Below are positions 30,301-52,702 of a stretch of DNA of 64,000 nucleotides, piece by piece; within the stretch, counting starts at the first letter, position 1, and every line of letters starts with the position of its first letter. The position numbers were made by a program, and so were the translations under genes. The stretch comes from Tribonema minus (taxonomy: Eukaryota > Sar > Xanthophyceae > Tribonematales > Tribonemataceae): assembly GCA_017506865.1 (NCBI GenBank), contig JAFCMP010000523.1, positions 310,001 to 374,000 on the forward strand. Direction: 5' to 3'. Below the pieces are notes generated by a model. The model was not told where the DNA came from, made no database searches, and saw nothing but the letters and a program-made list of their open reading frames with translations.

Positions 30301-30358
30301 GGACCTGCGCGTGGGGGCCGCCGCGCGCGCGCCGCCGCGCCTGCGCATCCCGCACAAA
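27344..30358 (-). CDS. unknown multi-exon protein, 5' end not found
   Basis: Three exons join with consistent phase: 30358-30183 (ending phase 2), 29194-28977 (ending phase 1) and 28104-27344, giving 384 residues without a start. Protein-like segments: VRPYKNPAVPCDWSVDEAAE, AHAKLLRVRPAAFHRRCEPG, LPRAGYTFSRLPPALRG, a Gly/Ala-rich middle, and a basic helical C-terminus (WRFDTTWRRERYGDAL, ADTVRAIVDFETRLVETLRI). I recognise no family; a structural or ciliary role would be a guess. The first intron is unusually repetitive, carrying copies of the exon edge. The first coding exon should lie to the right of 30358 but I could not identify it. Confidence 0.55.
29277..30235. repeat. intronic tandem array including exon-edge copies
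   Basis: Within the first recognised intron of the 27-30 kb gene, a block beginning CTGAGCAGCCGAG occurs at 29281 and 29691 (period about 410), with shared downstream segments. The exon 3' edge with its donor (30170-30235, GCTCGCACCTGTGGAACGCC and the following 50 bases) is copied almost unchanged at 30045-30112 and more loosely at 29877-29925. The first copy retains the donor sequence. Confidence 0.7.
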
Positions 30359-33060: not shown

Positions 33061-36000
33061 TCATTCCGTCTCCACGATACTGTCGTCAAACGAGTCCTCG
33101 GTCGGAAAGGGCACTGCGTGCGCGGGCGGCGGCGGCGATGGCGGCGGCGACGGCGGCGCCGCCGCCGCCGCCAGGCTGGGCAGGTCTACAGGCGCCATGT
33201 CGCCTTGGTCAGAATTCGTGCTGGTGTGCGTGATGGAAGCGTGCGGCGCTGCAGCAGGCGTCGCTTGTGACGGCGCCGGCGGCGGCGGCGGCAGCTCCGT
33301 CAGCGCTTCGGCGGCGGCGGCGCTGGACGGCGCATCGGCCTGGGGCGCTTGCGCGTGCGCGGCTGCCGCCGCCGCGGGCGCAGCAGCGCTTGGCGCAGGC
33401 GCGTCGGCACTCTGCAGGCGGCGAGGGGAGATGCAGCAGCGCACTCTCAGTTATTCATGCACTTGATTGCGAGCTGGATGACCACTTTTTTGGTCGCGTT
33501 CACGTAGCCACGTGCTGCCGCGAGAAGGGGTGGGCGTGTCACGCAGGGCGAGTGGCGGGGGTATAGAAAGGCCTTGTTCGATCTGTAAAAGCCATGCCGC
33601 GCAACCCTCGATGCTCCAGTGACACCCTGCATGCCAGTCACATTGTCGAGAAGCGCCGCGCGCGCAGGCGCCGCTCTCACGGCAGCGCTCCGAGAGCGCA
33701 GAACGCCACGCCAGTGTGCGTCAGCACGCACGCACCCTTAGAGTCCGGATTTGATGATCCAGAATGTATACGTGACCCTTCCCCCCAACTGTCAGCTGTC
33801 AATTCCACACCGCCACTGATAGAGGCTGTCGAAACTTCAAGTATACCCACTGAACAGGCTCTGGCACCAAGCCTGACATCATTCATCTGGGCTTTCTGCC
33901 GCCCTAAGGGAGCATTTACGAGAGTACATGTACTGCAATACAAGAAGTATTGCAGTATGTCGTTGTGTACACGTGTGAAACTGTACCGCACCTTGGCGGC
34001 GCGCTGCTCCGCTGTCCCCCCCCCCTCCGCGTGCTGGCTGTTGGCAATTTCGTAGAACAGCTTGAGGCGCGCGGCAAAGCACAGGAAGTCCATAAGGCCT
34101 ATCTTGCCGTCGCCGTCGACGTCTACCGCCTCTATGCATGCATCCACCTCGCGGGCCTGCAGCACATACAGTGGGGGGGCGGGGGCGAGGGGGGGCAAAA
34201 GCGTTACCTTTCAGATTGGTTTAGCCTGGGATGATGAAGTGTTGGTGGTGCGTGCCCATTGTGCTACAGTGAGCAACAGGAAGGCCTGGTACTGTGAGAT
34301 GATGAGATTCTAGAGAACGCAATGGCGGAGGGATGTGCGCACAAGGAGGCACGAGGCGCGCGCAGCATCATCACTTCAGCGGGCGCGCGCGCGCATTTGC
34401 GCAAAGTCACTCAGCTCGCCAGTGTCCCCCTGTCTTGTGGTTAACGGTTTAGTTGTACAGTGGTACTGCGAAGTAATGCACTTCTGACATATGCCGTATA
34501 CGAGGGATGTGTGCGCACCGAGGCGCGCAGCGTCGTCATCGTTTTCGTACGCGCACCTGCGCAAAGTCGCTGTGCTATGATAAACGATACCTCTTACAGC
34601 AGTACTCAGGAGTAATGCAATTCTGACACACATAGGCCACGTATGAGAGATGTGCGCGTAACGAGGCGCGCATCGTCGTCATCGTTTTCGCAGCAGCGCG
34701 CACCTGCGCAAAGTCGTTCTGCTCGCCGGCGTAGCCCTGCAGGGCCGCGGCGTCGATGAACTGGTTGTTGTTGTAGTCCATAAGTGCAAAGAGGAGCTTT
34801 AGCCCCAGCATCTCCGCCTGCGCGCACAGCAGCAGCAGCAAACGCACCCGCACCGCCGTCAATGTGTGCACCAGAGCACTGCCGAGGCACTCGCACGCAG
34901 CAGGGCCTTTACCCCCCTGGTTTTCTAGACCAGAGAGCTGTGGCGACCAATTGTTGCGTGTGCGTGCATATGTACGCCAGTGTGGAAGCGGGGCTTATGC
35001 GTCAATGAAGTGCGCCTACTACGCGCTGATGGACCCAAGACGCGCAGAGCGCTGGCGCGAGCGCAAGTGGTGAGGCGGTGGCGTGCGCGCGCCGTGTCTC
35101 ATGCCGGCAGGAACTCCACGCAGCGTGTTCGCACCAGGCCACCCATTCCTGCGTACATCCCAGGAGCTGCCGAGTGCAAGTCGATACGCGTGCGCCTGCG
35201 CAAGCCGTGCAGCTCTGTTGCACGCGGCGGAGGCGGCGTTGCACGAGCGGCTGCGCACGCCGCAGCAGGCGCGCAACGGCGGCGTGTGCGGCAAGGCAAG
35301 CGCTCCAACCGCAACTGACCTCCTCGAGTGCTATGCGCAAGCCACGCACCTCGGAGAACGACGCGTCGTCGCTTTCTATGGCCTCGCGTTGCGAGGACCC
35401 CAGGGATGAGCGCTGTCGCACGAGCGCGGGCGTCGAGCCATCCGAGTGTCGTCGCGACAGCACCGGCTCCGACGCCCCCTCGCCCCTTAATGCGGCACCG
35501 CCGCCAGTGCCGCCGCCACCGCCACCACCGCTGCCGGCGCCGGCGCCGCTGCTCCCGCGAGAGTGACCGTTGCTGACACCGCTGCCTCCCCGCGAGTGCC
35601 CATTGCTACTGCTGCTGTCGTTGTGCGGATGCGCAGCGCCGCTTTCGCCGCCTCCGCCGCCGCCGCCGCTGCCGCCGCCATTCAGGCCGGCCTCTGGCAC
35701 CTCGGCGGCGCCGTCCGAGCGCCGCCGCCCGAGCGCGCCGCCGCCATCTGCGCCGCCACCGCCGCCGCGCGTCGGCGACGGCAGCACGCCGCCGCACGTC
35801 AGCGAGTTGCGCGTCGCGCGTGCGCTCGAGTTGCTGCGCTGCATCTCGTCTGTGGGCTTGCGGTTGTGGCTCAGCGCCTCCAGCGGCGTGTAGCGGCGCC
35901 CGTGGCGCGGCGGCGACGCGCCGCGCAGCACCGCCGCCGCCGCCTCCGCCGCCGCCGCCTCCATGCCGCCGCCGCCGCTGCCGCCGCCGTCGCCGCCGCT

Positions 36001-39000
36001 GCTTCCGCTCCCCTCGCGCAGCGGCGATAGCTCCGCATTCCTGGTGGCCCACAGGCGCTGGCTGCCGCCGCCGCCGCCGCCGCTGGTGGTCGGGGAGTGC
36101 GTCGGCGACGGCCACGCCGCCGCGCCGCGCAGCGACGCGCTGCCGCCGCCGCCGCCGCTGCTGCTGCCCGGCTGGCTGCCCATGTAGTTCGCCACGAGCT
36201 TCAGGATGTTGGGGCTGGGCTCCTTGGAGCGGATGACGGCGGGCCTGTCGGGGCGCTGCGGCTGCTTGTTGTGCTCGAACGTGCGCAGCAGCGCGCGGAC
36301 GCTAGCCTTGGGCGCGCCGAGCTCGTTCTGCATGACGCGCGCGCAAAGAGCGGTTTGCGCGAGCACGGCACCCGTAAGCGCGGAGGTTGACGTTCGGAGG
36401 CGCACGGCTTGGGGCGCGCGGGTGTGCGTGAGAGGTGGCAACGCGAGCACACACGCAGGCGCGTCGGCGCGTTGTGGGCCTGTTGCTGCGCCCATTTGCC
36501 ATCCGCATCAGCGCTCCTGAGAGCTGTTGCACCAACGCACCTCACCGCCTCGCCGCCGCGCATGCCTGGCCTGCCTGTCGCCAAATGGGCCATCTCATGC
36601 TTCTCAAAGAAGCCACCCCCCGGGGGGGACAATTTGCGCTGTGCGCCGCAGCGCACAGCTGTGTGCGACACCCACAACTGCACACATGCACACACACATG
36701 CTCATAAATGGAGGTGAATGAATGGACAAATGAATGCATGCGCGCTGCCCCCGCTCGCCGACTCGCCCATGCCTACATGAGGCGCTCCCACTGCGGTTAA
36801 AGCTCACTCACTCATAGACGAATCAATGAATTCATAAATGAGCGCTGCCGCCGCGCACCTGCTCGCCCGCCCCCTCGTACAGCGCCTCCGGGTGGCGCTC
36901 GTTAATCCTATCGTTCGCCGCCATCGTCTGGTACTTGTCGTGGCTCGACATGGGGCCCTCGCTGTGCCGCCCGGTCAGCCGCATGCCAAAGGTGACGGCG
37001 CGCGCCGCGGCGCGCAGGCTCGGCCGCGCGCGCGCCTCGAACACCGCCGCCGCCGCCTGCACGCCGCCGTGCGCCGCCTGCAGCTTGCGCAGCTCGTCTG
37101 GCGCGGGCAGCACGGGCGCGGCGTAGTGCGTCAGCGCTCCGCATATGTGGCAGTGCTCAGCACGTGTTGATGTGAGCGCGCAGAGCAACGTAAGCATATG
37201 AGCGGCGTGAGCACATGGCGCGCGAAAACGCTGGCGCGGTCGCCGCCTGCAGTCTGTCGGCTCGAACAAGGGCAGCAGGCGCGGCGGCGTGCGCGAGCTG
37301 CGGCGCCCTCACCGCGGTTGTCAGCGCTCGGCGCCGTGGTTCATGCCACAGAAGCCCCCCACCCCACACAAACCCTCACCCCCCCCCCCCGCACACCGCA
37401 GCGCATGCAGCAGCAGCGCCGCTCCCGCGCTCGCCGGAGTTGGCGGTGCTCTTGCCGCCCTGCAGCGGCTGCGCGGGGAACACTGCTGCAATGCGTGCAG
37501 CACGACGTCACTTCATCAGCGCGCTCAGCGTCGCGCCTCACGCCACGAAATACCCCCCCCCCTCCCTCCCCCCCCGCGCACCCACACAACGCATGCAGCA
37601 GCAGCAGCAGCAGCGCCGCGCCCGCGCTCACCGGAGTTGGCGGTGCTCTTGCCGCCCTGCAGCGGCTGCGCGGGGCCCATGCGCCCCGCCATGATGACAA
37701 AGTCGCGGAACGTGGACGGCATGTACGGGCACGCCTCGATGAGCTCCGTGACCTGGACGTCCGCGCGCGACGGCGCGCCCTCCTTCGGCGGCGGCGTCGG
37801 CACGCACTCGTACTGCAGCACCGCGGGCTCCAGCTGGTCGCGCTCGAGCGTCAGGATGGCGCCCCTGCGGCGGCGGGCGGCGGCGGGTGTAGGGTTTGGG
37901 TTGGGCTAGGGTAAGAGCCGCAGTAGTTACAGTGGGTCTTAACCTGGGCTTCGAGTGGGGTTGGACACACGCCCGACCTGCGGGGGTAGCGTTGAGGGCT
38001 AGGGTTGAGGTGAAGATTGAGCTAGGGTGAGGTGATGTCAGATTAGGGTTTGATGGTGGATGATCATGGCGCGCCTGCGGCAACGAGGTGGATGAGCACG
38101 GTGCCGGTGTGAATGGCTTGCTGAGCTCTGCTGCAGCAGCAACAGCGCCGTATCGCCTGTGCATGCAATGAGCACCGCGCTGTGCCGCCGGTCATAATGG
38201 CGGTGATGCGCCATTGGCATGGCCCACGCGAGGCGCGGCCATGGACTTTGCTGAGCCATGCTGCAGCAATTTGCTGCGGCCCTCTGGCGGCAGTGCAGCG
38301 GTCCATCCCGAAGCGAGGGGTGTGCAGGGGCGACAACAAGCTTGACACGTGCTGCTGCGTGGTCTGCCATGCAGGAGTCAAGGCAGATGGTGACGGTGAC
38401 GAGCCACCACGGAGTACGTAAAAGTGGCGGCAGGGTGTGCCGAGACTGTGCGATCGCCCAACGGTACGGAAGCAAGCAGCAGCAGCGGCATCGGCACGTG
38501 CTGCCGATTTGCGCACGCGCACGGACATGCAGCAGCAGCGGCGGCAGCACGTCTGCACCACGACTCGCACTGCGTCCCCGTGCAGGACGCGCCGGAGCGC
38601 CAGGGCAAAGACTGGCGCGTCACCTAATTTGGACAGACGCAAAGCCAACTCAAACCCTACCCCTCACCCTCGTCCCTGCTCCTCCTCACCTGTTTCCGTA
38701 TCGACCGCAGTAGTTGGGCGCGCTGAACACGGTAATAACCGCCGGCAGTGGACGCTCGTGCACCCCCGCCAGCATACCCCCGCCGCCCCCCCCCTCCTCC
38801 CCCGCCTCCTGTGCGCTGCTGCCGCCGCCCGCCGCCCGCAGCTGCTCTAGTACGGGCTCAAAGTGGCGGTAGTAGCCGTTCTCCTGCACGGCGTGCGCGC
38901 GCACGATGCACAGCAGGTCGTTCGCCTCCAAAAACTTGACCGCCGCCGAGTAGCCGAACGTCACGCTGCGCGGGGGCAGCAAGGGGGCAGCAGGCGGCGG

Positions 39001-40861
39001 CAGCGGCGGCACACATGCGGGAGCAGCATGAGGGATGACAACACGAGCGGTGATGCGCAGTGTAAGCGAAGATGCGACGATCAATGCTCAGGCGTGGGCG
39101 CACTGTGGTAATCAGGCGCGCACGGAAGATGCGCAGACTGAGTGCACTGCGTGGGGCTCGGGCGCTGGTCGAGTCGCGCGCGCTTCGCCGCGAATGCCTG
39201 CGTTTGCGCGGCGCACTCATGTCGCGCCGGCGTGGCGCATGCGCTGTGCCAAAACGCACGGCAGCAGCACTTCGCCGACAATGGCGCGCTGTGGAATTGC
39301 CGTGCATCAGGCTTGCCGACAGCAGACAAGCGCTTAGCCGTGATTTGCTGATGCTCCATGAGACATGCGGCGACCACTCCTCCTGCGCACACCGTGCGCG
39401 GCGTTTGCCCGGGCACCTGCAAGGCCGCTACCGCGCTGCAGCCCCCCCCCCCCCAGCGAGCGCCAACAGCGTACCCCGCGACGCAGCGCTCAAGAGCCCC
39501 CGCGCAGCTTGTTGAACGCGAACGTGTCGCCGAGGACCGTCTCAAGCGCCGCGGCGTTGAGCGCTGCCGCGGGGGGGAAGGCCGCTACGCCCCCCCCCCC
39601 CCGCGAGCACCCCCCGTGACACAGCGCTCAGGACCCCCCCCCACACACACACACACGCACACACCTGCACCCGCGCAGCTTGTTGAACGCGAACGTGTCG
39701 CCGAGGACCGTCTCGAGCGCCGCAGCATTGAGCGCTGCTGCGGGGGGGCACGTCGAGGGGTCGTCCGAGGGGTCCGCCCACAGCAGGTCGCACAGAGGGC
39801 CGTCCATCGGCGGCTCCGTGCGCCTGTCAAGCGCATCGACGGCGTCTATCGTCGCGAGCTCCGGGGAGAGGCCGCCGTGCGCGCAGAGGTAGCGCCCGTG
39901 GTCGTTGGTGACGAGCGCGGCCAGGGGGAGCTCCTCGAACACGCGCACGAATCTGCGGCGCGGCGGCGGCAGCGGCGTGACGGCGGTTGTTGAAGTTGCG
40001 AGTGGCTGCAGCCGCTGAGGTGTTCAGAGTGGGGTGCGGTGAACCGAATGATTCTCCCATAGACGAGTGGCCATGCCCCGCACCGCACAGCTGTAAGAGC
40101 GGTGCGGTGGTGGCAGTCGCAGAAGCAGCAGCAGCGGCTTCATAGAGACGCTCACGCAGTGGTGACAGTTGAGGTTGAAGTAGTGAAAGTCGTTGAAGCT
40201 ACAAGGCAGGCAGAACGCCGCCGAGGCCGGCTCCGATGCCCATCTAAAATCGGTGCGCGGGAACACAAACGTGCCGCGAACACCGCGCACCTGTAGTACA
40301 CGGGCAGGCCGTACTTGCCCTTTGCAGTCCTCCTTGAAGCCCACACAATAAACTTCGATATGTTACTTCAACTGTGAGCAGCAGCGCTCACCTGTAGTAC
40401 ACGGGCAGGCCGTACTTGCCCTTGCACTCCTCCTTGAAGCCAAAGTGCCCCGTGAGCGCGCGGCACTCGTGGTTGCCGCGCAGCAGGTGCACGTGGTCCG
40501 GGTGCGCGAGCTTCAGCGCCAGCAGGTACAGCATCACCTCGCACGAGTACGCCCCCCTGTCCACATAGTCCCCCAGGAACAGGTACGTGCCCCCCTCCCC
40601 CTCCCCGTCCCCCTCCCCCGGCATCCCGCACATCTCCAGCATGCTCAGGAGGTCGAAGAACTGTCCGTGGAGGTCGCCGACGACGCGGACCGGCGCCTCC
40701 AGCCGCAGAACGTTCCTCTCCTTCGAGATCAGTCGTATCGCCTCGTCTATGAGCCACAGCGCCTCGCCCGTCTCCAGCTGGTCCTGCGCGCTGAAGGTGG
40801 CAGCGAGCCGCGCGGGCGACAGCGTCTCCAGGCTCGGCAGCGGCCCGAGCGCCGCCGTCAT
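33061..40861 (-). CDS. calcineurin A-like phosphatase fused to C-terminal EF-hands
   Basis: Ca2+-linked Ser/Thr phosphatase (PP2B-like). Nine exons: 40861-40392, 39952-39665, 38965-38690, 37864-37632, 37136-36859, 36327-35350, 34817-34704, 34156-33992, 33411-33061; phases 2,2,2,1,0,0,0,0; 1050 aa. Catalytic core: GDLHG (62-66), GDYVDRG (97-103), RGNHECR (128-134), FKEECKGKYG, LAALV, CAHGGLSPE, DLLWADPSDD, RGCS, RAHAVQENGY and SAPNYCGRYGN follow calcineurin A order. The calcineurin-B-binding helix (LPNFMDVFTWSLPF in animals) is not recognisable. DRINERHPE (498-506) matches the autoinhibitory DRINERMPP. Exon 6 is a 326-residue Gly/Ser-rich linker. Exons 7-8 hold two EF-hand loops: DYNNNQFIDAAA (degenerate last position) and DVDGDGKIGLMD. 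An Ala/Pro-rich acidic tail ends the protein. Exon 5's acceptor is the weakest call. Confidence 0.87.
34386..34730. repeat. three copies of the EF-hand exon donor edge
   Basis: The 3' edge of exon 7 of the calcineurin-like gene (GCGCACCTGCGCAAAGTCG, about 34699-34717) recurs at 34551-34569 with the donor intact, and at about 34390-34409 with the donor altered. Flanking CGAGGCGCGC and CGTCGTCATCGTTTTCG are copied too. Periods are about 147 and 160. Confidence 0.8.
36690..36875. repeat. echo of the exon 5 donor edge
   Basis: Sequence around the exon 5 donor (GAATTCATAAATGAGCGCTG followed by CTCGCCCG, about 36826-36870) has a diverged copy about 100 bases further into the intron (GCGCTGCCCCCGCTCGCC, 36742-36759, preceded by an AATGAATG-rich stretch). 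This is the weakest of the echoes. Confidence 0.5.
37424..37682. repeat. echo of the exon 4 donor edge
   Basis: The last 50 bases of exon 4 plus the donor (37620-37678, CGGAGTTGGCGGTGCTCTTG and following) are repeated 197 bases further into the intron at about 37425-37482. The copy carries GC instead of GT at the donor. The upstream GCATGCAGCAGCAG is shared as well. Confidence 0.85.
39421..39752. repeat. tandem echoes of the exon 2 donor edge
   Basis: About 80 bases of the 3' edge of exon 2 (CGCGCAGCTTGTTGAACGCG from 39672 to about 39752) are repeated at 39501-39580 with few changes, period 171. The AAGGCCGCTAC that follows starts again at 39421, showing a third partial unit. Variable C runs and an AC run (39645-39662) separate the units. 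Confidence 0.88.
40286..40445. repeat. echo of the exon 1 donor edge
   Basis: The 3' edge of exon 1 with its donor (CACCTGTAGTACACGGGCAG and on to about 40437) is repeated 101 bases into the intron at 40289-40342, nearly identical, with an intact GT donor. The copy still encodes the Lys-Gly-Lys-Tyr-Gly-Leu-Pro-Val-Tyr-Tyr end of the exon. Confidence 0.9.
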
Positions 40862-41737
40862 CTGGCCGCTCTGCGCAGCGCGGCGCGCGAGGACGCGCAG
40901 AGAGCGGAAGAGTGAGAAAGAGGATGAGAGGGGGAGAGTGGCGCGCGCATGGCGCGTACAGAGTGTACGCGCGAGAGCGGAAGAGTATGCGGGGGGAAGT
41001 GAGGGAGAGGAGCGGATGCCGGTGCGAACATGAATTCACTTCACTGAGTTGTGTGCATGCACTGCTGCGCGCGTTGGTCGAGCGTGCGTGCTACAGCAGT
41101 GGCTGAGTGTCTCTATCCGGGAGGAGCTTGAGTGAGCGCCGCCGTGACGTCTGGAGCTCTGGCGAGCGATGACACGCATGCACGGGGAGCTAGGCGCCCT
41201 CCACCGGTGCCGCGCGTAAGTCGTTGACAGCAGCGGTCACAATCTACTCAACTTCACTTCTTGTGTTGCGTCTGACATGTTGGCGCAGGCCACAGCCTGC
41301 AGCACATCTCAGATGGAGGCTCACCCCGCTGCCTCAAGCAATGGCGCACGCACCGAGGACACTGTCCTTCCACGTTGCAAAACTTGAGGCTGGTCTTGTT
41401 GGGCAGGTGTGTGACATGCAGAACTCCAGTGTGTCCGCACATGACATCCCTAAAGCGGTGACCCCACTTCCTTGCCGTTCACCATATCCTGGTTCATTCG
41501 CCTACCGCGGTGACCAGGCGCTGCCAACAAAATTGCACGTACTGCACAACAGAGCATGGCGATTGGCGGATGCACGATTGCCGAGCCAACGATGCCATGC
41601 AGCAGCAGCATGCCTTGTGCCTGTGCGCGGTCATGGAACGTGCCAGGCGTCTGCCATAGACAAATCCCAGTCACGAGTCCCAGTCACGGTCATCAGGCAC
41701 TGCGGACATGACGGCTGCCCTGCGCCAACGCGCGCGC
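40862..41737. other. intergenic, with candidate promoter motif and a possible extra RING-gene exon
   Basis: Upstream flank of the calcineurin-like gene. CTCAACTTCACTTC lies at 41247-41260. On the minus strand, 41394-41325 reads TSLKFCNVEGQCPRC then VRHCLRQR between an acceptor-like AAG and a good donor; it could be a downstream exon of the RING gene, but no terminal exon was found. Confidence 0.35.
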
Positions 41738-42424
41738 TCATCGGCTCACCTTGTCGCTGACGCCCGTCGCCATGCGGTAGTGAGACACCGTCTCGTAGCG
41801 CTGCACCAGCCGCTCCGCAGACCGCCATGACACCCGCCGCGCCTTGTCCTGGTGCGACTCGCAAAAGTACCTCCCCGCGCTCCTGATCCGCTGGCAGTGC
41901 TCCACGACGCACAGCAGGTGCTGGTGGTGGGAGTCCGAGATGGCGGGGCTGTTGGCGCCCGCCTGACCCGCGTCGAAGGAGCCCCCGCTGGGGATGGAGC
42001 TGAGAAAGTCCAGGAGCTTGCTGCCGCTCCTGCCAACACTGCCCGGGCTGGACGCAGGGGTGGATGCGGAGCTGCCGGAGCCGTCCCGGATGTGCTCGGT
42101 GCTGGCGCTGCTGCCAGAGAACTTGCGCTGCAGCTGGCGAGGAGAGCTGGTCGGCGAGCCCATGGGGGAGGCCACGGGCACCGCGAGCTCCTCCACGCTG
42201 CCGCACATGGAGTCGACAAGGCACGCGGGGCAGCGCAGGCCGGTGGTCTCTAGCCACAGATCTTTGGCGCATGATGTGCACACAAGGTGACCACAGTGGA
42301 GGAGCCTGGGCACCAGGTTGGCATCTCCCTTGAGAGAGAAATCGTAGGCCTCATAGCAGTTGGAGCATTCCTTATAGTTGGCGTCGGCGGCAGGCTCAGT
42401 GGCGAGCGCCGGAGGCGCCGTCAT
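41738..42424 (-). CDS. RING-finger protein with B-box-like motif
   Basis: Likely E3 ubiquitin ligase. The open frame gives 228 aa from the first ATG. Residues 20-68 are a C3HC4 RING finger: Cys20, Cys23, Cys44, His46, Cys49, Cys52, Cys65, Cys68, in CSNC, LHCGHLVCTSC and CPAC. A Ser/Gly-rich linker follows (SPMGSPTSSPRQ, GSSASTPASSPGSVG). A second Cys/His cluster (CVVEHCQRIRSAGRYFCESH) resembles a B-box. The last codons before the stop include AAG|GTGAGC, a good donor, so the real protein may continue in a downstream exon near 41394-41325. The start lies 412 bases from the RAB28 start on the other strand. Confidence 0.75.
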   Translation of the reverse strand: MTAPPALATEPAADANYKECSNCYEAYDFSLKGDANLVPRLLHCGHLVCTSCAKDLWLETTGLRCPACLVDSMCGSVEELAVPVASPMGSPTSSPRQLQRKFSGSSASTEHIRDGSGSSASTPASSPGSVGRSGSKLLDFLSSIPSGGSFDAGQAGANSPAISDSHHQHLLCVVEHCQRIRSAGRYFCESHQDKARRVSWRSAERLVQRYETVSHYRMATGVSDKVSR

Positions 42425-42836
42425 GGCCCACCAGTTCCTATTTTGCACTGGGGCTCTCTCCCCTGCACGCTTCCCTCTCTCTTACTGTCTACTCAGCTGT
42501 TGGTGCATGCACCATCAGAAGCTTGCTTTGCGTCCCTGACTGTGGTGCAGGGTCTCTTCCCCCCAGCGTGCCAGTGATGACGAGGAAAGAATGATGGGGC
42601 CTGTTCTACGCTTGTCCTAGCACCGACACTGGCAGCTCGGCAAACTCCACACGCTGTACAGTAGCGCTGTCCCCCCCGCATCCTTTTCCCCCGAATGTAA
42701 CGTCTTGTCGACGGTCTTGATCAGCCGGCTGAGTACATTATGGCGCCTGCTGCAGACACGGTGTGATCTGCTCGACGGTCTGAGGTACTTGCTGATGTAG
42801 TCCGAGGAAACGAGCACTTGTTGCCTGATAGGTCCT
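42425..42836. promoter_or_regulatory. divergent intergenic space between RING gene and RAB28
   Basis: 412 bases separate the two start codons and must hold both promoters. I see no clear TATA box and no copy of the CTTCAACTTC motif found at other promoters here. Confidence 0.35.
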
Positions 42837-44687
42837 ATGCCGCCTTCGACTGACGTGCAGTGCAAATTGGTCCTAGTGGGCAATGGGTCCGTCGGCAAAA
42901 GCAGCATCATCGCACGCTTTGTGGACGACGGATTTCACTGCGTGTACCGGCAAACAGTTGGCGTCGACTTCTTCGAGAAGCAGGTCACCGTGCGCAACAG
43001 GTGAGCTTGGGGTCGTTTGGCCTCAACACGTATCAGTTCCTTTTTCATGTAAGGTGCTTGTTGTCATTATTGGGATGTGACTGTGCACAAGATAGGCAAT
43101 AACCTCAACTGACACTTGTGAAATATTGAGGTAAACAGCTTCATAATCTCAACCTATCCACTGTGTTTGATGCTAAGTTTAAAGATTAGGCTCGCAAAGA
43201 AGCATTAAGCCTGTATCATCCACCTTGCACAACTGGTACTTGCAATTCAAGGTGCACTGCACTTGCACGCTTGCTGGCTTGCTTGCAGCCTGACACTGAG
43301 CTTGCAAGTCTGGGACATTGGCGGCCAGAGTCTGTCGAGCAACATGCTGGCAAAGTACCTCTACGGCAGCCGAGTGGTGTTCCTGTGCTACGACGTCACG
43401 GATCCAAACTCCTTCAGTGACCTGGTGAGTATGATGACACTTATGACTAGCACACTGTGCAACCTGCACCATACGGCCATGCTCAAGTAGGCTTGAAAGT
43501 TCAACAATGTGATTCAGACATTTGTGCTCTCACATACCTGCGCTGACACGGACACTTGCTCGCTTCTGTTGATCAGGATGACTGGCTGCGCATCGTCCGG
43601 AAACACTTCGGAGGGAGCGGCGCGGAACGCAGTTCAGATCAGCAGTTGAAGCAGGTCGACATTTACCTCGTGGCAAATAAGATAGACTTGCTGGACCTGC
43701 GTCGGGTCAAAGAGGTAAGTAGGCAAGGAGCTCCTCTGTGAACGATTGCTGACGAACATTGAAGAAGTTGCCGAAACTCACCTGTAGAAGTGTACAACTT
43801 GACAGAGAACTGTTCTTGTAAAGCACAACCTGGTACCAGAGGGCAGATATATGCCATCTAGTCTCAAGGGACAGTGCCTCTTCCGATGGACGTTCCGCCT
43901 GCGCTATGCAGCGCTTCATGTTACACTTGCTTGCACGCTAGTTTGGCCATCGTGGGCAACGCTCCATGCACGCGCCGCAACGGCATCAAAAGCACTCGCT
44001 CATTCTAGAATAAGGCTCTGCGCCTGTGGGAATACGGTGATCAGGGTAGCGGATCTAGCGTGGCTTGGTGCACAAGGTGTTGCCACATGCCGCTGATCAG
44101 CTCAGATCAAGTCACTTTGAATGGCTATTCAACACCTGCTTGAGAGTTCTTAAAACCATGCACAGTGTGATTCGGCACCAAGCAGTCCATACTTACCAGA
44201 GTCTCGATGGCGAAATATATGGTAGGCAGAATGAACACGCAGCACTTCGTGTTTTCAGTTTCCGTGCTCGTTCAAAGGGTGACAGTTGTCAACAATCGTT
44301 ACAACAAAGTAATGCTGCCAGCAGTGGCTTCAAACGCTGACCACCTGTTACGCCGTGCGCACGCGCCGCCAGGCCCAGCACTGGAGCTTCGTGTCGGAGC
44401 ACAACCTCTGCGGCGGCATGCTGTGCAGCGCGCAGAGCGGACAGAACGTCGTGCGCGCCTTCAACCACGTCGCCGCGCAGGCCGCGGGCGTGAGGCTCTC
44501 AGAGTACGAGCTCGCGTTCTACGACAGGGTGCTCGACGTGACGCGGCACGACGAGCCGGCGGCTTCAAAGGGCGGCGGCGGCGGCGCGGCGGACAGCGGG
44601 CGCACCGCGATGGCGGACGCCATCGAGGCGGAGGACCTGGCGCTGGAGGCGGCGAAGGCCGCAAAGAGGTCGTGCATGTGCATGTGA
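42837..44687 (+). CDS. RAB28: RAB28-like small GTPase
   Basis: Ras-superfamily GTPase, best matching RAB28, which works in ciliary and intraflagellar traffic in other eukaryotes. Exons 42837-43000, 43289-43424, 43577-43714, 44373-44687 (phases 2, 0, 0), 250 aa. G1 GNGSVGKS (15-22), G2 Thr in RQTVGVDF, G3 WDIGGQ in place of the usual WDTAGQ (RAB28 hallmark), G4 NKID, G5 SAQSG. The exon 3-4 junction aligns without gaps to RAB28 (RRVKEAQHWSFVSEHN against RTIKPEKHLRFCQENG). The C-terminus is extended by a Gly/Ala and acidic helix and ends RSCMCM, a cysteine-four-from-end prenylation box, as RAB28 ends in a CaaX box. It is read divergently from the RING gene. Confidence 0.9.
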
Positions 44688-45230
44688 TGACGGTGTGGCC
44701 GTTGGGCGCTTTTCTGCGTTTTCGTGCTTAAAGGTGCAGTCAGAGATTGGGCATCAGCGGTACAGAGGCCTGCGCCGCAGCACTGAACCATGGTTCACAT
44801 CAGATTCATTGGGCACGCATGCGGGTCAGCAAAGGTGGAAGAAGCATGCAGGAACACGCACCTGTGCAGATGACATGCAAGTGCCGGCGCCATGCAGAGC
44901 GCAGTGCAAATCGCCGTCAATGTGCAGCACATGCAACAACCAGCAGCAGCGACACGCGCAGCGGCAGATGCAAGCACCCACCTGAGCGCGGTGGCAGCAG
45001 GTCAGCAATGTCATCCAAGCCAGATGCAAAGCGCAACTCATGTGGCTTTCATTGACCTTGGGGCATCGATCCGTTAAATCCAGGTCGTTCATGTGCACGG
45101 TCTCGCTAGGTGAGCGACCTGCGCACTTAACAACCGTTGACACATCAAATCTCATAGCCTTGTGGACTGAGGTGTCCACCGGCAGTTCAGCCTTTGCGTA
45201 AACGAGCACGGAGGGGCGGTGCACGCACTA
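44688..45230. other. convergent intergenic region; no gene recognised
   Basis: 3' flanks of RAB28 (+) and the coiled-coil gene (-). Repeated CAGCAG and GTGCAGCACATG-type segments are present but no open frame with a recognisable product. Confidence 0.55.
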
Positions 45231-45644
45231 TCAAATCGCCCCTTGCATGCCAACATCGCTGTTACCATCGACATTCTCAGTGTCCTCCCACAACAGCTCC
45301 CGCTTCACACGCGCAATGAATTGATCGCTCCTTGTGCTGCTGCTCGAGGCTTTCCGCATCTGTGCGCCTTGGGTCCGTTTGCCTGCCGCCTGCGCGCCCC
45401 CCCGTGCCGCTCGCTTGCTCTCCGCCTTCGTGCCCAGTGGTGCCTTGTGCTTTGGCCCCAACTTTGTCCGCTGCGCTGTCGCTGTCGCTGGCGCGCAAGC
45501 CGGCGAGGTGCCGCTCGACAGGCTGAAGAGCCGCAGGTGCGGCGGCACGGTCGCGCTGAGCTCCTTCACTCTCGCCGGCGTGGGAGGCAGCGCCTTGTGC
45601 CGCCAGATGTTCGCGACGCTGATGCAGTCGGCGGCAACGCCCAC

Positions 45645-45679
<35 letters not shown>

Positions 45680-46166
45680 GCCGTAGCGGGGTCACAAACC
45701 CTCCTCCAGCTGAGCAAGAATCCAGCTTGTCGTCTGTGGTGTTGCTGGATGCCTCCACAGTGCACGCAACATCAAGGCTTGGTCCTGGCTCTGCCATGAG
45801 CGACTTCCTGAATTTTTTTATGGCGCGTGGGTCCAGAAGAATCGGAGCCCCCCTGCTCTCGTTCGCCCAGTAGAGCGTCTCGTGCTCCCAGATCCGCTGC
45901 TCACACACTCGTAGCTCCTCGCACAGCTGATGGTGCTGCGCTTCAAGCTGCTGCAGGGCAGTCAATTTGGTTCCACTACCCCTCTTGGCTTCGACAGGCG
46001 CTGCGCTGTCGGCAGTGCCCTCGGTCGCCTTGCCTGTGCCCCGGCCATGCATTGTGCCGCAGTTCGCGCTGGCGGCATTCTTTTTAACTTTGGCTTTGAT
46101 GGAAGGCTTGCCGTTACTTGAGCTGCCGGCGCGCATGGCCGCTGTGGCTTTGCGAACCGGTGCCAT
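45231..46166 (-). CDS. coiled-coil protein with weak Eaf6 resemblance
   Basis: Single open frame, 311 aa, from an ATG in a compact divergent promoter. The N-terminus is Lys/Ala-rich and nuclear-like. Residues about 68-115 form a predicted coiled coil (ALQQLEAQHHQLCEELRVCE, then RIWEHETLYWANESRGAPIL) that resembles the Eaf6/MEAF6 subunit of histone acetyltransferase complexes, which has an L..L..lE.qIy.fE.sYL pattern. The Gly-Asn-Ile-Ile signature of Eaf6 is not present, so the match is suggestive only. A run of ten glutamines, a Thr-Pro motif (PPTPARVKEL) and a basic region rich in Lys/Ala follow, ending in an acidic tail (WEDTENVDGNSD). Chromatin role is inference. Confidence 0.6.
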
Positions 46167-46392
46167 GGATCGGGGAAGATTTCAGCTCCTCCTCTCCGAA
46201 CCGCTTTGTGAGGGAAGCCTGTGGCTCGGCTGGGGTGCAGGTTGCAGACAAACACGGCCGTTGCTCGCCGCCACCGAGGGCCAAGCGCCGGAGCACACTT
46301 CACACGCAACACACACACACTTGCGTCTGAAAAGATCGAACTTGAAGTGTCGCAAATTTGAACTTCAACGCCAAACAGAGGTGAGCTCGAGA
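46167..46392. promoter_or_regulatory. bidirectional promoter with paired CTTCAA-type motifs
   Basis: 226 bases separate two divergent start codons. CGAACTTGAAGTG (46337-46349) and TTTGAACTTCAAC (46357-46369) face each other as an imperfect inverted pair, 24-56 bases upstream of the VMA22 start. An ACACAC run precedes them. Confidence 0.5.
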
Positions 46393-47546
46393 ATGGAAGG
46401 TCAACCTGCTCAGAGCGGGCTTGCAGCAAGCACCAGCAGAAGACAATGCAGCCTCGAGACGTCCCTGACTCTCGCTCTTCTGGAGGCCGCAGACGAGCTG
46501 CACAATGCGAAGGCCGAGCTGAGCTTGTGCCTCAAGCAGGGCTTCTTCAACATGACAAAGGCGAGGCTGGCAGCAGGAGGCGGGGCACACAGCGCCGGCA
46601 TAACAGTGCTGGACACGCGCGAAGAGGTGGGTGAGCGCTCGGGTCTGTGCAGAACTGGGCAGTGACTACGGCAGCAAATTTGCTCCAAGAGCTCTCACAA
46701 GTAGCTATTCGAGCGCAACTGAGCGGGTAGGTGATTGGACAACAGCCGTGACATGAGACATGGTAGAGCATGCTGGGCAGAAATCTTTTCTTGGCTACCG
46801 CCTCTTGGAGACCTGCAGGCCAATCAACTGCAGTGCCGTCCCCGATCAGAAACTCGCACTGTGCCACCAGCTTGCTTGGTGCTGGCCGGCAGCTGCCAGT
46901 GCATTCATGATTCAGCTCCAAAGCCCTGCAACAATATGTCTGTCGCGTGCATCCTCTGCGGCCCCAGTTCCACGCGGCAGTGACCGTGGAGCTACTCGAT
47001 AAGGACCCCGATGCATCGCCGGCGCGGGAGCTGCGCGCCCTCAAGCTGCCCGCAGGCCACGCCTTTCAGCGCGCGGGCAACGACGACGCGCCGCACAGCA
47101 GCGGCGGCAGCGTCAACGGCAGCAGCAGCCTGCGCCAGCGCAATCACGCCGGCTCCGACTCCAGCACCATTGCGGAGGAGGCCGCTGCCGCAAGCGCTGC
47201 TGGCAAGGACTCCATGCAGCTGTTCGGCGGACTGGTGCCGCCTGCTCTGCGCAAGGCCAAGAGGAACTTCTCGTCGGCCCTCGACTATGTATTCTTGGCG
47301 GCGGAGCTCACGCAGCGGGTGGCGCTGCTGTACAGGGCGGTGCTGCAGTGCGTGCCGCCGCCGCCGCCTGCACCGCTGCCGCCGGCGTCAGCAGAACAAC
47401 AACAGCAACCTGCAGCGGCAGCAGATGGAGAGGCCGCACTGAGGGGGGCGGATGGCGCAGATGTCGGTGGCAGTGCGCAGCAAACAGAGGCTGAATCATT
47501 GGCCGCACAATTAGAACAGGTAGAATTGAGTGCGGACTCAGGCTGA
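46393..47546 (+). CDS. VMA22: V-ATPase assembly factor VMA22/CCDC115 homologue
   Basis: ER-resident chaperone for assembly of the proton-pumping V-ATPase membrane sector. Two exons, 46393-46626 and 46968-47546, phase 0, 270 aa. The N-terminal helix with the family hallmark (ELSLCLKQGFFNMTKARLA, about 43-60) is followed by a Ser/Asn-rich loop. The second hallmark, QLFGGLVPPALRKAKRNF at about 162-179, then SALDYVFLAAELTQRVALLY, matches the conserved FG.LVPP.L..AQ..F segment of VMA22. The C-terminus is Pro, Gln and Ala-rich low complexity. No membrane segment, as expected. Intron 1 is 341 bases. The gene is head to head with the coiled-coil gene. Confidence 0.85.
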
Positions 47547-48409
47547 TGCAATACACAGCATGTTTTGTGAAGCTCTGCATGTGAAGGTGAAGCCTCAGTG
47601 CGTCATTGCCTTCGTCACGTCAGGTTTGACTGCGTGTGCTGGTGCGCTTCAGTGTTCTGTTCAGTCCAGCACACAGTGTCGTCGTTTTGGCTTGCGCAGC
47701 TACCTGGCGTGTATTTCATCATACTGTGTGCACTACTGGCTTTCAAGTGGATTGCAGGCGTCTGTGCCCCAGCCTTTGTGTACATTGCACAACATCAGCA
47801 TCCTGCCTTGTTGTGAACGAAGTAGTGCTACTCATGCGTCAGCGCTGCATGTTTGCATGCAGCCCCAGGCCGGACGGATTGCTGGTTGTCATCAGTTGTC
47901 CACAAGATTGCAATGCTGCTGCTTCTAGGCTGTTGGTATTTCACCATAGTTTGCGACTTTTTCCTGGCTGCTGTGCCTGCTGTGCTGCCCAAGCCTTGAA
48001 TCTTTCTCAATGGTGCCAAGATGAGAAGAAAACAACGACAGAGGCTGCTCAGGCATCGGCCTCGCCCATTGTCCCGAGAAAGAATTGGCTCATCAAGTTA
48101 CAGTGTGAAACAAGGGAATTTTGAATCATCTGATGGTGCGCGCTCTATGTATGTTAACCCTCAGCTGCGACACGACGTCACACCTAACCCTAGTTCTCAA
48201 CCCCCCCCCCTGGTGATCAACCCCTCGATCTGTCTGCCACACATGGCCAATCGTATCGTTTCATCGGCTGACACACCGTGTGTCCAAAAAAAAACGTGTG
48301 TGCGCCGGGTTTTGTTCACTAGACTAGAGTGCAAGTGGAAGAGGCAGCGAGAGCAGCACATACGAGGTCCCTGCACCTGCGGCAGCACTAGCTCCGCAGC
48401 CAGCCTGCC
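47547..48409. other. intergenic between VMA22 and desaturase; no gene recognised
   Basis: 863 bases with lower GC. An interstitial CCTAACCCTAG stretch lies at about 48183-48193, followed by CAACCCCCCCCCC. It should contain the VMA22 3' UTR and the desaturase promoter; the CTTCAACTTC motif is not seen. Confidence 0.5.
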
Positions 48410-51400
48410 ATGGCGCCCCGCGATGAAAGCTTTTTACAGCAGGCAGACCCGCCAGGCGTCTTGAAGCGCGATCCCATGGCTGTCAAGGACAAGTTGCGCA
48501 TGGATGTGCTCAAGAGGATAATACCAGACGAGTGAGTGGCCCTTGCCTCGGTAGTAGCTTGTTATTGTCAGCTGTTGTTGCTCAGGCATGCGCCGCTAAA
48601 AGTGCGCACGACGCGTACGGGTGTTGTTAGGTGTTGCCGTTCTCCTACATGCCGTCCATGCAATCGGGTTACTGCAAGGCGAATGTGTTTGCAAGCCCTG
48701 CAGTGCGCTCTGTCGCTCGTTTCTGGCCTTGTAACACTCACGAGGTGTTCTCCCCGCCTCACTCCTCAAAACCACTCTCAGGTGCTTCCACAAAAGCTTG
48801 GTCAAGTCCCTCTTTTACATGGTGCGGGACATGGGGCTGATCTGCGCTCTGTGGAAGGCGTATCCGGTGTATGTGGAGGGCAACTGGCCATTGACATTCG
48901 TCTGGTGGAACGCCATGGGGTTTATGATGTGGGCGCTCTTTGTCGTAGGTGAGTCTCCCTTCATGAGTGCGTAGGCCCGTGCCTGCACTGCTTCTTAACA
49001 TCATTAACATCATTAGATCAGAAGGGCAGATGGTCCTTTCCGTAAATGTCACTGCACTCTGTGTCTGTACTGTTATAGTGACGTAGGCTTGCTGTCCATG
49101 CCCGTGCGGGGCGTGCGCATGCGAATCAGGCTGCGAGCACTCAAATGTATTGTGTCAGCAATCATCAGCTTGCACTGCATTGCACAGTGTACATGCAGAG
49201 TGAATCATGAAATTTCTGACCTTTGCATCACACAGTGATGCTGCACTTGGCTAGATTCACAACAAAGAGATCGAAATCTCGATTTCCACAACTGATAAGT
49301 TTGAGCCTTGAAGAACTGCTCAACACCTAGCTGCAGCGATAGTTCATGCCCCATCTCCTGTTCGGCTGCGAAAATCTGTAGCGTCAGCAAACGCGAGCTG
49401 CAACTAGTGCCGGGCCTTGCGCACGAAGCCTTGTTGCAATTCTCTGGCGTGTGCGCTGCTGAAGTAAAGGGTGCCATGCGCTGATGCCACATGCCTTGAC
49501 CAATTGCATACTCTGCTGTACATGGTATTTTGCACGAACCGTTGCAAGGGCGCGCTGCTAGGCAACGGCGGGAACGCATTGTCAGCAGCAGCAGCGCACA
49601 CGCCAGTGCCCCGCAGCCCTAACTGTTCAAAAACGCCTCATATTTGCATGCCCAAGTATGACGCATTGACAAGCACTGTTGCTCATGTAGCATGTGTCTT
49701 GGTCGGCAGGCAATCCAAAGGACTTGATGCGCAGTTAACGCGGTCCATACTTAGTTTTTATCACATAGCCTTTTATTTGTAAAGTGCGTTCTTGGCTCGG
49801 CGACCTAAACAACGAGAGCAAATGCGTGGCTAGCAGCTGGGTCTGCTGACGTTTGTATAATTTTCATTGCTGCGGAAAAAATCAAATGTTTTGCAACAGC
49901 CTGACCGCATCTGAATAATACGGCAGCAACATATGCTCAGGGAACCCAGGCAGGTCAGCACAACTTTACGGTTGACGCAAGGCGTGCAGCGTACTTCATC
50001 AAAGAATAAAATGCGCACAATGCAGATGACACCAGACTCACATGTGCATATGCTTGTACATGTGTGTAGTAATGGTCCCGTGCAGCCCTTCAATTCACCC
50101 ATTTGTCAGTTGTGCAGAGCTGTCTGCGCATCGCTGTGCTGTACACACCTTTGATTATAGCGGCACGTGGCCTGATTTGTCAGACGATCACACCTTCTGT
50201 TCTCCGCGTCACATGCTGACTTGAAGTTGGAAGCAGTTTTACCAAAATTGACAATTAATTATTTTAATTTACAATAATTTATTATGATTATTGGAACAAT
50301 CACATAGACAATCAATGGGAGCGCTTTCTCAATGCAGTCGTCTTATCAAGAATCGCGCGCCGCGTGCGTCCTCGCCGGTTTCGTTTCGTGTAACTGCCAG
50401 CTCATATCCGCCACTTCACACGCCACGCTCGCGCGCGCGCAGGGCACGACTGCGGGCACACCACCTTCAGCGACCACACGTGGGTCAACGCGTCGGTTTC
50501 GTTTTTCGTAACTGTCACCTTGTAACCGCCACTTCATGCTCCACTCGCGCGCGCGCAGGGCACGACTGCGGGCACACCACCTTCAGCGAGTACACGTGGG
50601 TCAACGCCGTGTGCGGCCACCTGTGCCACGCGCCGCTGCTCGTGCCCTTCTGGCCGTGGGCGCAGTCGCACCACCAGCACCACTCGTACCACAACCACGT
50701 GGAGAAGGACCACTCCTTCCCGTGGTTCCGCAAGGAGCAGTACGCGACGCAGCTATCCGGCGTCGGCCGCACGATCCTCAAGACGCCGCTGCACCCGCTG
50801 TTCTCGTACGGCGTGTCGTACCTGTTCTTCGGGTACTGGGATGGCTCGCACTTCAACCCCTTTGGGAGCCTGTTCAAGAACAGGTGAGGCAGCGGCGGCG
50901 GACCGTGGCAGCCGCGTTGCGCTCGCGCATGCTTCCTTTCTGTAGAGCTGCTTGGCAGTTCAGGCAGCGTATATGCGGCAGTGCTCACAGTGTTTTTAAT
51001 CACGACTGTCATGATCCGTCTCCCTGGGGGGCATTGTGGGTGCATTTCAAGTCAGGTGTCTTATTAGTGGCTTTCTGGCGTGCCGGTTCCGGCAGCATGC
51101 AGTGAATCAACCATCAGACTCACATGGGGCCCTGGTGGCCCGCTGCAGCTCAATGTAGCACCGGCATGGCGTCAATGATCCATTCGCAACCATGGCTGCA
51201 GACTGCCAAATGCTCCGCACTGTCCAGGCCTGCTTGAAAGCGAGACGTGCGTGGCGCACAGCCGTCTGGGCGGCGTGCGACCAACACCTCTAGGTACTCT
51301 ACAGCATGTGCTTTCTCACCCATGCATTCCGAACCACTGGTGAGCATTTCAACTGACACACACACACACCTCCCCCGCCCCCCCCCTCAACCCTAACCCT

Positions 51401-52702
51401 ACCAGGACGCAGCGCGTGCAGTGCGCGGTCTCCTCGCTGGCGGTCGCGCTCTTCCTGGGGCTCTTCCTGCACTATGTCATCGAGTACAGCTGGAGCGCGT
51501 TTGCGGTCAAGTACGCGGCGCCGTGGTGCATCTACAACTACTGGCTCGTGATGGTGACGTACCTGCAGCACCATGAGCCGGACTCGATCACGTACGACGA
51601 CGCCGACTACTCGTTCGCCGTCGCCGCGATGGAGACGGTGGACAGGAAGTACTGCTGGGGCGTGGACGACCTCCACCACAACATTACCGACGGGCACGTC
51701 GTGCACCACCTCTTCTTCACCAAGATCCCGCACTACAACCTCATGAAGGTGAGCAGGATGCACTTATCCTTCGATGGTTTGGGGTTGATCATTGTTTGGG
51801 GTTGTGAAAAATAGTAGTTGACGTTGATCACATCAAAGGGCACGTCGTGCACCTTCTCTTCTTCACCAAGATTCTGCACTACAACCTCATGAAAGTGAGA
51901 GATGGCGTTGATTTCGCGAAGCCCTTGAAGTACAACTTAGAAGTATGTATCTGATCACCGGGCAGGCATCACGTTGTGCACCACCACTTCTTCACCAAGA
52001 TATTGCACTACAAACTCATGCAGGTGAGCAGGCGCATTTGTTGTTTTTAAATAGTGTGAGTTGTGCAAAGTTGAAGTTGCTGTCACGGGTGGGCACGCGG
52101 TGCACCAACTCTTCTTCACCAAGATGTTGCACTACGGGAGCACGTTGAAGTCGTGCAGGCTACAGCCATGTACATGGTGACTCGCTGCACAAACATATGT
52201 ACCCCCGCACTTCAACTTCATTGATTGCCATGTAAATACTCGCGGTTAGGCGTAGGGTTGGAGTTGTGCAGGCTGCGTCCTTGCCCAGCGAATACACTGG
52301 CAGAGTATGTGCAGCTGTGTGCAGCCGCTCAGGCAAACGCTCATGCAGCGCACAGGTGCAGTGGCTCCACCTGCCAGCGCCTGCGCCCATCCCCCTCTTC
52401 GTGCGCGCTTGCATGCCACGACGCCATCCGCGCATGTCTGCAACTGTCATGCCGACGCCGTCCTCCCGTCTCGAACTCTCATCCTCACCCCCGATTCCGT
52501 TGCAATCTGTTACAATCTGCGTAACCGACAGGCCACGGACGCGCTGCGGCCGTACCTGGAGGGCCTGGGCGTGTACCGCTACCAGCGCAACCCGCTATTC
52601 CTGTGGACGTTCGTGCAGTACAACTACAAGTACGGCCTCTTCACGCACAGCAAGGCGGACGAGCCGTGGGCGCCGCCGCAGGAGGTCAAGAAGGTCGCAT
52701 AA
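48410..52702 (+). CDS. membrane fatty-acid desaturase, omega-6/omega-3 type, ER
   Basis: Di-iron acyl-lipid desaturase of the Delta12/omega-3 class. Exons 48410-48531, 48782-48948, 50559-50883, 51406-51748, 52532-52702 (phases 2,1,2,0), 375 aa. Three histidine boxes: HDCGH (98-102), HHQHH in AQSHHQHHSYHNH (134-143), and HVVHH (302-306) in HHNITDGHVVHHLFFTKIPH. Conserved [26 protein letters not shown] and YWLVMVTYLQHHEP are typical. The N-terminus lacks a plastid leader and the protein ends KKVA, a KKXX-type ER retrieval signal, so it should act on ER phospholipids, probably making linoleate or alpha-linolenate. Omega-6 and omega-3 specificity cannot be separated by eye. Introns 2 and 4 carry decayed copies of exon edges. 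The 3' splice site of intron 3 is preceded by CAACCCTAACCCTACCAG. Confidence 0.93.
50382..50612. repeat. tandem duplication spanning the exon 3 acceptor of the desaturase
   Basis: A 116-base unit holding 60 bases of intron, the acceptor CGCGCGCAG and about 48 bases of exon (GGCACGACTGCGGGCACACC and on) occurs twice: 50382-50497 and 50498-50612. The upstream copy has an intact acceptor and still encodes the first histidine box, but continues into intron sequence. Confidence 0.9.
51690..52140. repeat. four-copy decaying echo of the desaturase exon 4 donor edge
   Basis: The exon 4 end (GGGCACGTCGTGCACCACCT, CTTCACCAAGATCCCGCACT, 51690-51755) recurs at about 51838-51898, 51965-52034 and 52092-52138. 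Copies grow more diverged with distance; spacing is about 120-145 bases. The first two copies keep GT or GTGAG-like donors. Confidence 0.88.

Follow-up and report, generated by a model that had tools for sequence, protein, structure and literature searches.

Copies of exon edges in the introns of Tribonema minus and the probable growth of introns by tandem duplication across splice junctions

Many introns of the alga Tribonema minus contain copies of the edge of a neighbouring exon. These copies, referred to here as echoes, very probably represent tandem duplications that straddled an exon-intron junction, became trapped in the intron, decayed neutrally, expanded into arrays and lengthened the introns that hold them. 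They were noticed in the interval 33061-52702 of a 64,000-nt stretch of DNA (the window, numbered from its first base), which comprises bases 310001-374000 of contig JAFCMP010000523.1 (C520) in assembly GCA_017506865.1 (158 Mb, 554 contigs). The analysis was performed on a 264-kb sample consisting of the window and a further 200 kb, of which 40 kb flank the window on C520 and 40 kb each come from contigs C1, C100, C2, and C15. Exon edges were predicted with a small hidden Markov model (HMM) that was trained on the sample sequence alone and that merged neighbouring genes. When ten predicted exons were checked against Pfam, six had matches above the cut-off (two phosphatase and one each desaturase, SET, Rieske, and AAA), one had a match below it (EF-hand) and three were without a match.

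Each intron-facing edge of the strong predicted exons, 305 in total, was compared with the 700 bases adjoining it. At a score of at least 36, the adjacent intron held a copy of the edge in 30 of 152 cases for donors and 31 of 153 for acceptors. When these edges were compared with sequence beside other genes' exons, a match was obtained in only 0.1% (donor) and 0.4% (acceptor) of cases, and reverse complements gave 0.7% for either class. Alignment of introns against their flanking exons, a check proposed for the whole genome when the echoes were first described, thus found them in the 264-kb sample at ~20% of edges against 0.1-0.4% by chance. Deeper in the exon the rate drops, to ~3% at 50-100 bases from the edge and to none (0/105 and 0/107) at 100-150 bases, again at a score of at least 36. 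The echo rate also varies by region, since the C1 chunk contributed no echo edge. Among 125 introns of 120-3000 bp lying between strong exons, 36 held at least one edge echo and six held echoes of both edges; the median length was 785.5 bp for introns with an echo and 540 bp for those without (p = 0.008).

The banded alignments of 68 echoes are informative as to how the copies arose and what became of them. In most, an exonic and an intronic part both align, showing that the duplicated segment crosses the exon-intron boundary. Where 20 or more bases align on each side of the junction (31 echoes), divergence was 7.9% in the exonic part and 15.2% in the intronic part, a ratio of 1.92. An approximately two-fold intronic divergence would be expected if both intron copies drift while only one of the two exon copies does. 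Differences by codon position were 51/824, 46/833, and 110/829 (6.2, 5.5, and 13.3%) in 57 of the 68 echoes, those with an exonic part shorter than 15 bp, longer than 100 bp or exceeding the exon having been omitted. Similar values at positions one and two, with position three roughly doubled, are those expected for a neutral echo beside an exon that changes mainly at silent sites. Taken together, the copies behave as neutral fossils of junction-straddling duplications, and selection for the copies was not seen.

An alternative is that the copies are functional and are kept by selection, be it as splice-site decoys or to provide alternative exons or exon ends. Consistent with this, the splice dinucleotide was retained in 16 of the 17 donor echoes with long intronic alignments. 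However, retention was close to that expected under neutral decay, both for donors (12.6 expected, p = 0.09) and for acceptors (16/21 against 14.4 expected). Codon positions one and two differ at similar rather than low rates (6.2 and 5.5%), and echo spacings modulo 3 were distributed as 23/15/20, with no clear bias to multiples of three. We consider a function for the copies highly unlikely. As a side observation on splice sites in the HMM-based gene models, 30 of 279 donors in the sample are GC instead of GT, and acceptors favour GCAG/G (the slash marks the junction).

The divergence data also bear on the possibility of an assembly artefact, which the sequence-only reading had put forward as the main alternative. 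A few repeat pairs are indeed 99-100% identical (62033-62296 in the window and 29631 in the C1 chunk). Nevertheless, the differences in the echoes amount to several per cent and are patterned by codon position and by exon or intron origin; an artefact does not fit such copies and is exceedingly improbable as their source.

Within the interval 33061-52702, a self-BLAST of the window recovered the exon-edge copies at the places where they had been described, on both strands, and echoes were also found beyond the window. Their sidedness was confirmed, with donor-side copies downstream of the donor and the acceptor-side copy upstream of the acceptor. The statement that at least four unrelated genes were involved was too high for this interval, in which two predicted genes carry the echoes, namely a desaturase gene and a phosphatase gene with EF-hand-like parts; counting the EF-hand part as a gene of its own would make three. 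Elsewhere in the sample, echoes flank exons of other genes, for example those with SET, Rieske, and AAA domains. When the desaturase donor edge (51692-51748) was searched against the whole genome, the edge and its three copies (starting at ~51838, 51970, and 52091) were found at one locus only, with identities of 100, 92, 89, and 87%. The features concerned are as follows, in window coordinates.

40392-40870, minus strand: calcineurin-like phosphatase exon predicted by the HMM (Pfam Metallophos, 2e-17), donor edge 40391/40392.
40281-40341, minus strand: echo of 40382-40441, 50 bp of exon end and 10 bp of intron, spacing 100 bp (self-BLAST, alignment).
39663-40005, minus strand: next phosphatase exon predicted by the HMM (Pfam Metallophos, 7e-8), donor edge ~39662.
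39496-39577, minus strand: echo of 39667-39748, spacing 171 bp; intronic homology resumes past a simple-repeat gap (self-BLAST).
37632-37864, minus strand: exon predicted by the HMM, donor edge 37631.
37324-37478, minus strand: echo of 37521-37675, spacing 197 bp, 44 bp exonic and ~111 bp intronic, donor GT changed to GC (self-BLAST, alignment).
34704-34916, minus strand: exon predicted by the HMM, EF-hand-like by eye, no Pfam match, donor edge 34703.
34456-34576, minus strand: echo of 34595-34723, spacing ~139-147 bp; a weaker second echo lies 307 bp from the edge (self-BLAST, alignment).
50559-50883, plus strand: fatty acid desaturase exon (Pfam FA_desaturase, 9.5e-10), acceptor edge 50558/50559.
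50363-50491, plus strand: acceptor-side echo of 50479-50607, head to tail, spacing 116 bp (self-BLAST, alignment).
51406-51748, plus strand: next desaturase exon predicted by the HMM, donor edge 51748; alone without a Pfam match.
51838-51899, plus strand: first donor-side echo, 92% identity (whole-genome search).
51970-52032, plus strand: second donor-side echo, 89% identity (whole-genome search).
52091-52135, plus strand: third donor-side echo, 87% identity (whole-genome search).
52532-52702, plus strand: last desaturase exon as predicted by the HMM, closing the 783-bp intron that holds the three echoes.
30183-30358, minus strand: predicted exon outside the interval, with donor-side echoes (spacing 121 and 303 bp) and an acceptor-side echo (188 bp) (alignment).
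29993-30113, minus strand: echo of 30116-30234 (self-BLAST).

Two further predicted exons of the window, 37380-37485 and 39506-39563, are probably echoes that were miscalled by the HMM; the edge at 37485 is counted among the echo alignments. Three echo edges on C15 (38692, 38806, and 39052) were kept, although they lie in a gene with repeated exons and so may reflect likeness between exons. In the same chunk (~34-40 kb), the predicted locus L024 has many similar exons of ~38-45 residues, mostly ending in Lys or Gln and coiled-coil-like by eye, and looks like a product of repeated exon duplication. Separately, the chlorophyll-binding family gave 92 matches. The best solved relatives of one light-harvesting exon were fucoxanthin chlorophyll a/c-binding proteins, and a second exon had its best matches among other light-harvesting chains. 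The 18S sequence looked ochrophyte-like.

Repeats in the sample are predominantly direct and local, with 153 same-strand pairs less than 2.5 kb apart compared with seven near inverted rows, of which three are self-palindromes. Coding repeats at window 54517-55372 and at C2 19502-20087 were excluded from the family counts and from the counts of pairs at ≥85% identity given below; the former, on the minus strand, is an array with an 81-bp period that is probably ankyrin-like by eye. The spacing of the 68 echoes had a median of 186.5 bp. Periods of 53 to about 410 bases had been claimed from the letters; the measured spacings were 94-626 bp (5th-95th percentile), and the 53-bp period was not found in the interval. 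At a score of at least 32, 26 edges had at least two echoes, with up to eight beside the Rieske-domain exon (C15 15405), and some of these multi-echo edges carry regular arrays, e.g., at 102, 218, 310, and 428 bp or at 169, 338, 520, and 682 bp. The nearest copy was the best at 17 of the 26 edges. Decay with distance, as originally described, therefore holds as a tendency only, and some edges clearly depart from it; at C100 27164, for instance, the copy at +107 is 80% identical and that at +215 is 95% identical.

The near repeat pairs group into 79 families. Families containing a pair more than 1200 bp apart were dropped from the family counts, which gave 51 families that overlap a strong exon against 25 with no such overlap. 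This predominance of exons would be expected if duplications were aimed at splice junctions, for instance through breaks or template switching linked to transcription or splicing, such that edges are copied more often. Also in line with aiming, non-exonic direct copies occurred in 110 of 1833 windows within 500 bp of exons and in 7 of 501 beyond 2 kb, and the splice junction is non-randomly placed within the duplicated unit. However, the 25 non-exonic families are equally dense near and far from exons (10 in 108.9 kb at <500 bp and 2 in 27.7 kb at >2 kb; p = 0.55). The window-level gradient was not counted as targeting, because windows of one array are not independent and the gradient is lost when families are counted. 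The same reservation applies to the intergenic contrast, in which 0.7% of 421 overlapping windows reached a score of 36 and none reached 42. Moreover, the echo of a constrained exon can be recognised for about twice as long, and this alone enriches edges. The edge excess is at least partly a matter of preservation, and targeting to splice sites, which we regard as unlikely, is not claimed. In C100, intergenic sequence is as rich in direct copies as introns are. That chunk also has near-identical coding stretches in two predicted loci (L013:1302-1916 and L014:2729-3094) and, in the same loci, a 311-bp exact repeat 1284 bp apart; both suggest a mobile or duplicated element.

Several observations weigh against the proposal that the echoes are simple products of duplication across the junction. 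Far copies are sometimes younger than near ones. Among 50 pairs at ≥85% identity (pairs at least 700 bp apart having been dropped), a gap of more than 30 bp separates the copies in 41, and seven are contiguous to within 5 bp. For 14 of the 37 gapped echoes, shuffled sequence matches what follows the echo at least as well as the gap does, and the exonic part of the echoes is shorter than random breakpoints predict. The contiguous pairs include the youngest, namely 62033-62296 (99%) and C1 29631 (100%). The former is a 131-bp head-to-tail tandem duplication that lies outside predicted exons. In the two cleanest units, the alignment exceeds the spacing by 1 and 2 bp, an overlap that bears on junction microhomology. 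With respect to the gaps, a match to the post-echo sequence above the best of 20 shuffles was obtained in 23 of the 37 echoes, and by at least 8 points in 17, although the shuffles were of single bases and simple repeats may inflate the matches. Head-to-tail duplication is thus demonstrable as full tandem units for only 17-23 of the 37 gapped copies. The 14 unmatched gaps may contain filler or replaced sequence; an example is 40391, where exonic identity is 98% and a tail cannot be recognised.

Gaps of this kind could also be read as introner-like mobile elements that inserted near junctions and left long target-site duplications. The 14 gaps without a counterpart after the echo would agree with insertion, and some inter-copy gaps are richer in A+T than other intron sequence (GC 0.485 against 0.552) and contain TTGAAGT seven times in 2290 bp. 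This motif, however, has no conserved flank in its 220 copies and is common in other noncoding sequence as well. In addition, distant repeat pairs (at least 10 kb apart, by self-BLAST within chunks only) were few, with 15 on the same strand and six inverted, and we judge insertion to be quite improbable. The TTGAAGT-bearing gap was itself considered as an inserted element and was set aside on account of the small numbers and the lack of a conserved flank. As a feature of the introns in general, TTGAAGT and its complement occur at ~8-10 times the order-2 expectation, on both strands, with flanks conserved for no more than about three bases.

The short exonic part has a median of 43 bp in donor and 39 bp in acceptor echoes. 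A filtered set of 22 echoes was limited to units of at most 200 bp that were no longer than the exon, with an alignment reaching the junction and an exonic part of at least 10 bp that likewise did not exceed the exon. In this set the exonic share of the unit had a mean of 35% and a maximum of 55%, and none of the 22 exceeded a share of 0.65, as compared with 7.7 expected for random breakpoints (p = 8e-5). The 29 rows present before filtering included one ratio of 0.6-0.7 and one above 1 that resulted from an alignment fault. One possible explanation is a bias of the gene models against long copies, in that the model might extend an exon through a long copy that stays in frame. Another, which we offer tentatively and with some doubt, is a splicing filter, whereby only duplications with an exonic part below the length of a recognisable exon survive, longer copies being spliced as pseudo-exons. 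If this were true, one could read from the introns of this alga the limits that exon definition sets on random duplications.

As a whole, the divergence pattern, direct orientation, arrays and intron lengths fit the mechanism that the sequence-only reading had suggested, i.e., recurrent tandem duplication over splice sites in which splicing conceals the extra copy and the intron grows. The presence of the copies, their direct orientation and neutral decay, the arrays and the longer introns are the observed parts of it. In the steps that we propose, small direct tandem duplications would arise in the genome, mostly with spacings of ~95-300 bp. If such a duplication spans an exon-intron junction, splicing at the original edge would keep the protein unchanged and the extra edge with its splice motif would become intron; continued use of the original edge is suggested by coding potential and protein families. 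Duplications inside exons would presumably be purged by selection. The trapped copy would then drift neutrally while the exon stays constrained, and the existing repeat could expand into an array by unequal exchange or slippage, so that the intron grows stepwise. The duplications plausibly begin with staggered breaks that are filled in and end-joined, a route described for small tandem duplications in other organisms. As a separate observation, interstitial telomere-type runs of at least 12 bp (TTAGGG, 18 runs; CCCTAA, 30 runs) occur in the sample, 36 being intronic, 12 intergenic and none exonic (e.g., window 51389-51401); these may be traces of break repair.

How introns lengthen has mostly been deduced from transposons and old sequence. 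In the present sample, about one in five tested edges shows a neutral self-copy, for which the exon serves as a built-in constrained reference that dates the copy. It thereby becomes possible to measure, within one genome, how often small tandem duplications arise, what sizes they have and how far splicing tolerates them, and the short exonic part can be used to test whether exon recognition limits the duplications that survive.

In potato, tandem duplication across an intron-exon boundary of an RdRp gene created a new intron (PMC4974935). The duplicated segment ran from the 3′ part of an intron into the 5′ part of the exon that follows and contained the splice site, as in the echoes; the potato case, however, concerns one gene and a new intron, whereas here existing introns grow, at about one-fifth of tested edges. 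Likewise, intron gain via tandem duplication of coding sequence is described for Drosophila (PMC2891723), again with partial exon duplication that includes splice motifs. These reports involve the same type of mutation, and the Rogers/Hellsten model, in which duplication of an AGGT-containing piece of exon gives birth to an intron, is established. The expected register (donor and acceptor windows aligned, the intron being bounded by homologous AGGT sites, with a period equal to intron length) was sought in 176 introns at a score of at least 30 and was found in none, which argues against intron birth; high-scoring introns in other registers look like echoes miscalled as exons. The chance that the echoes mark newly born introns is very remote, and the Drosophila events, in which exonic proto-splice sites yield new intron positions, differ from them in this respect (0/176 here). 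With respect to origin, fill-in of staggered breaks followed by end-joining produces small tandem duplications at engineered breaks in mouse and human cells (PMC8355091). Those duplications are short, local and direct, and compatible with the youngest contiguous units found here, but they followed engineered breaks, whereas in T. minus the cause is inferred and sizes often exceed 100 bp. Direct repeats around intron borders have also been surveyed and read as insertion marks (PMC11782384); they are 4-30 bp long and shared by the two borders of an intron, in contrast to the longer copies of one border within the intron described here. No genome-wide report of exon-edge copies at about one-fifth of edges was present among the matches listed in the open-licence literature. 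In comparison with these systems, the event itself is known, and what is new is its density, known from one genome, and the way it can serve to record how introns grow.

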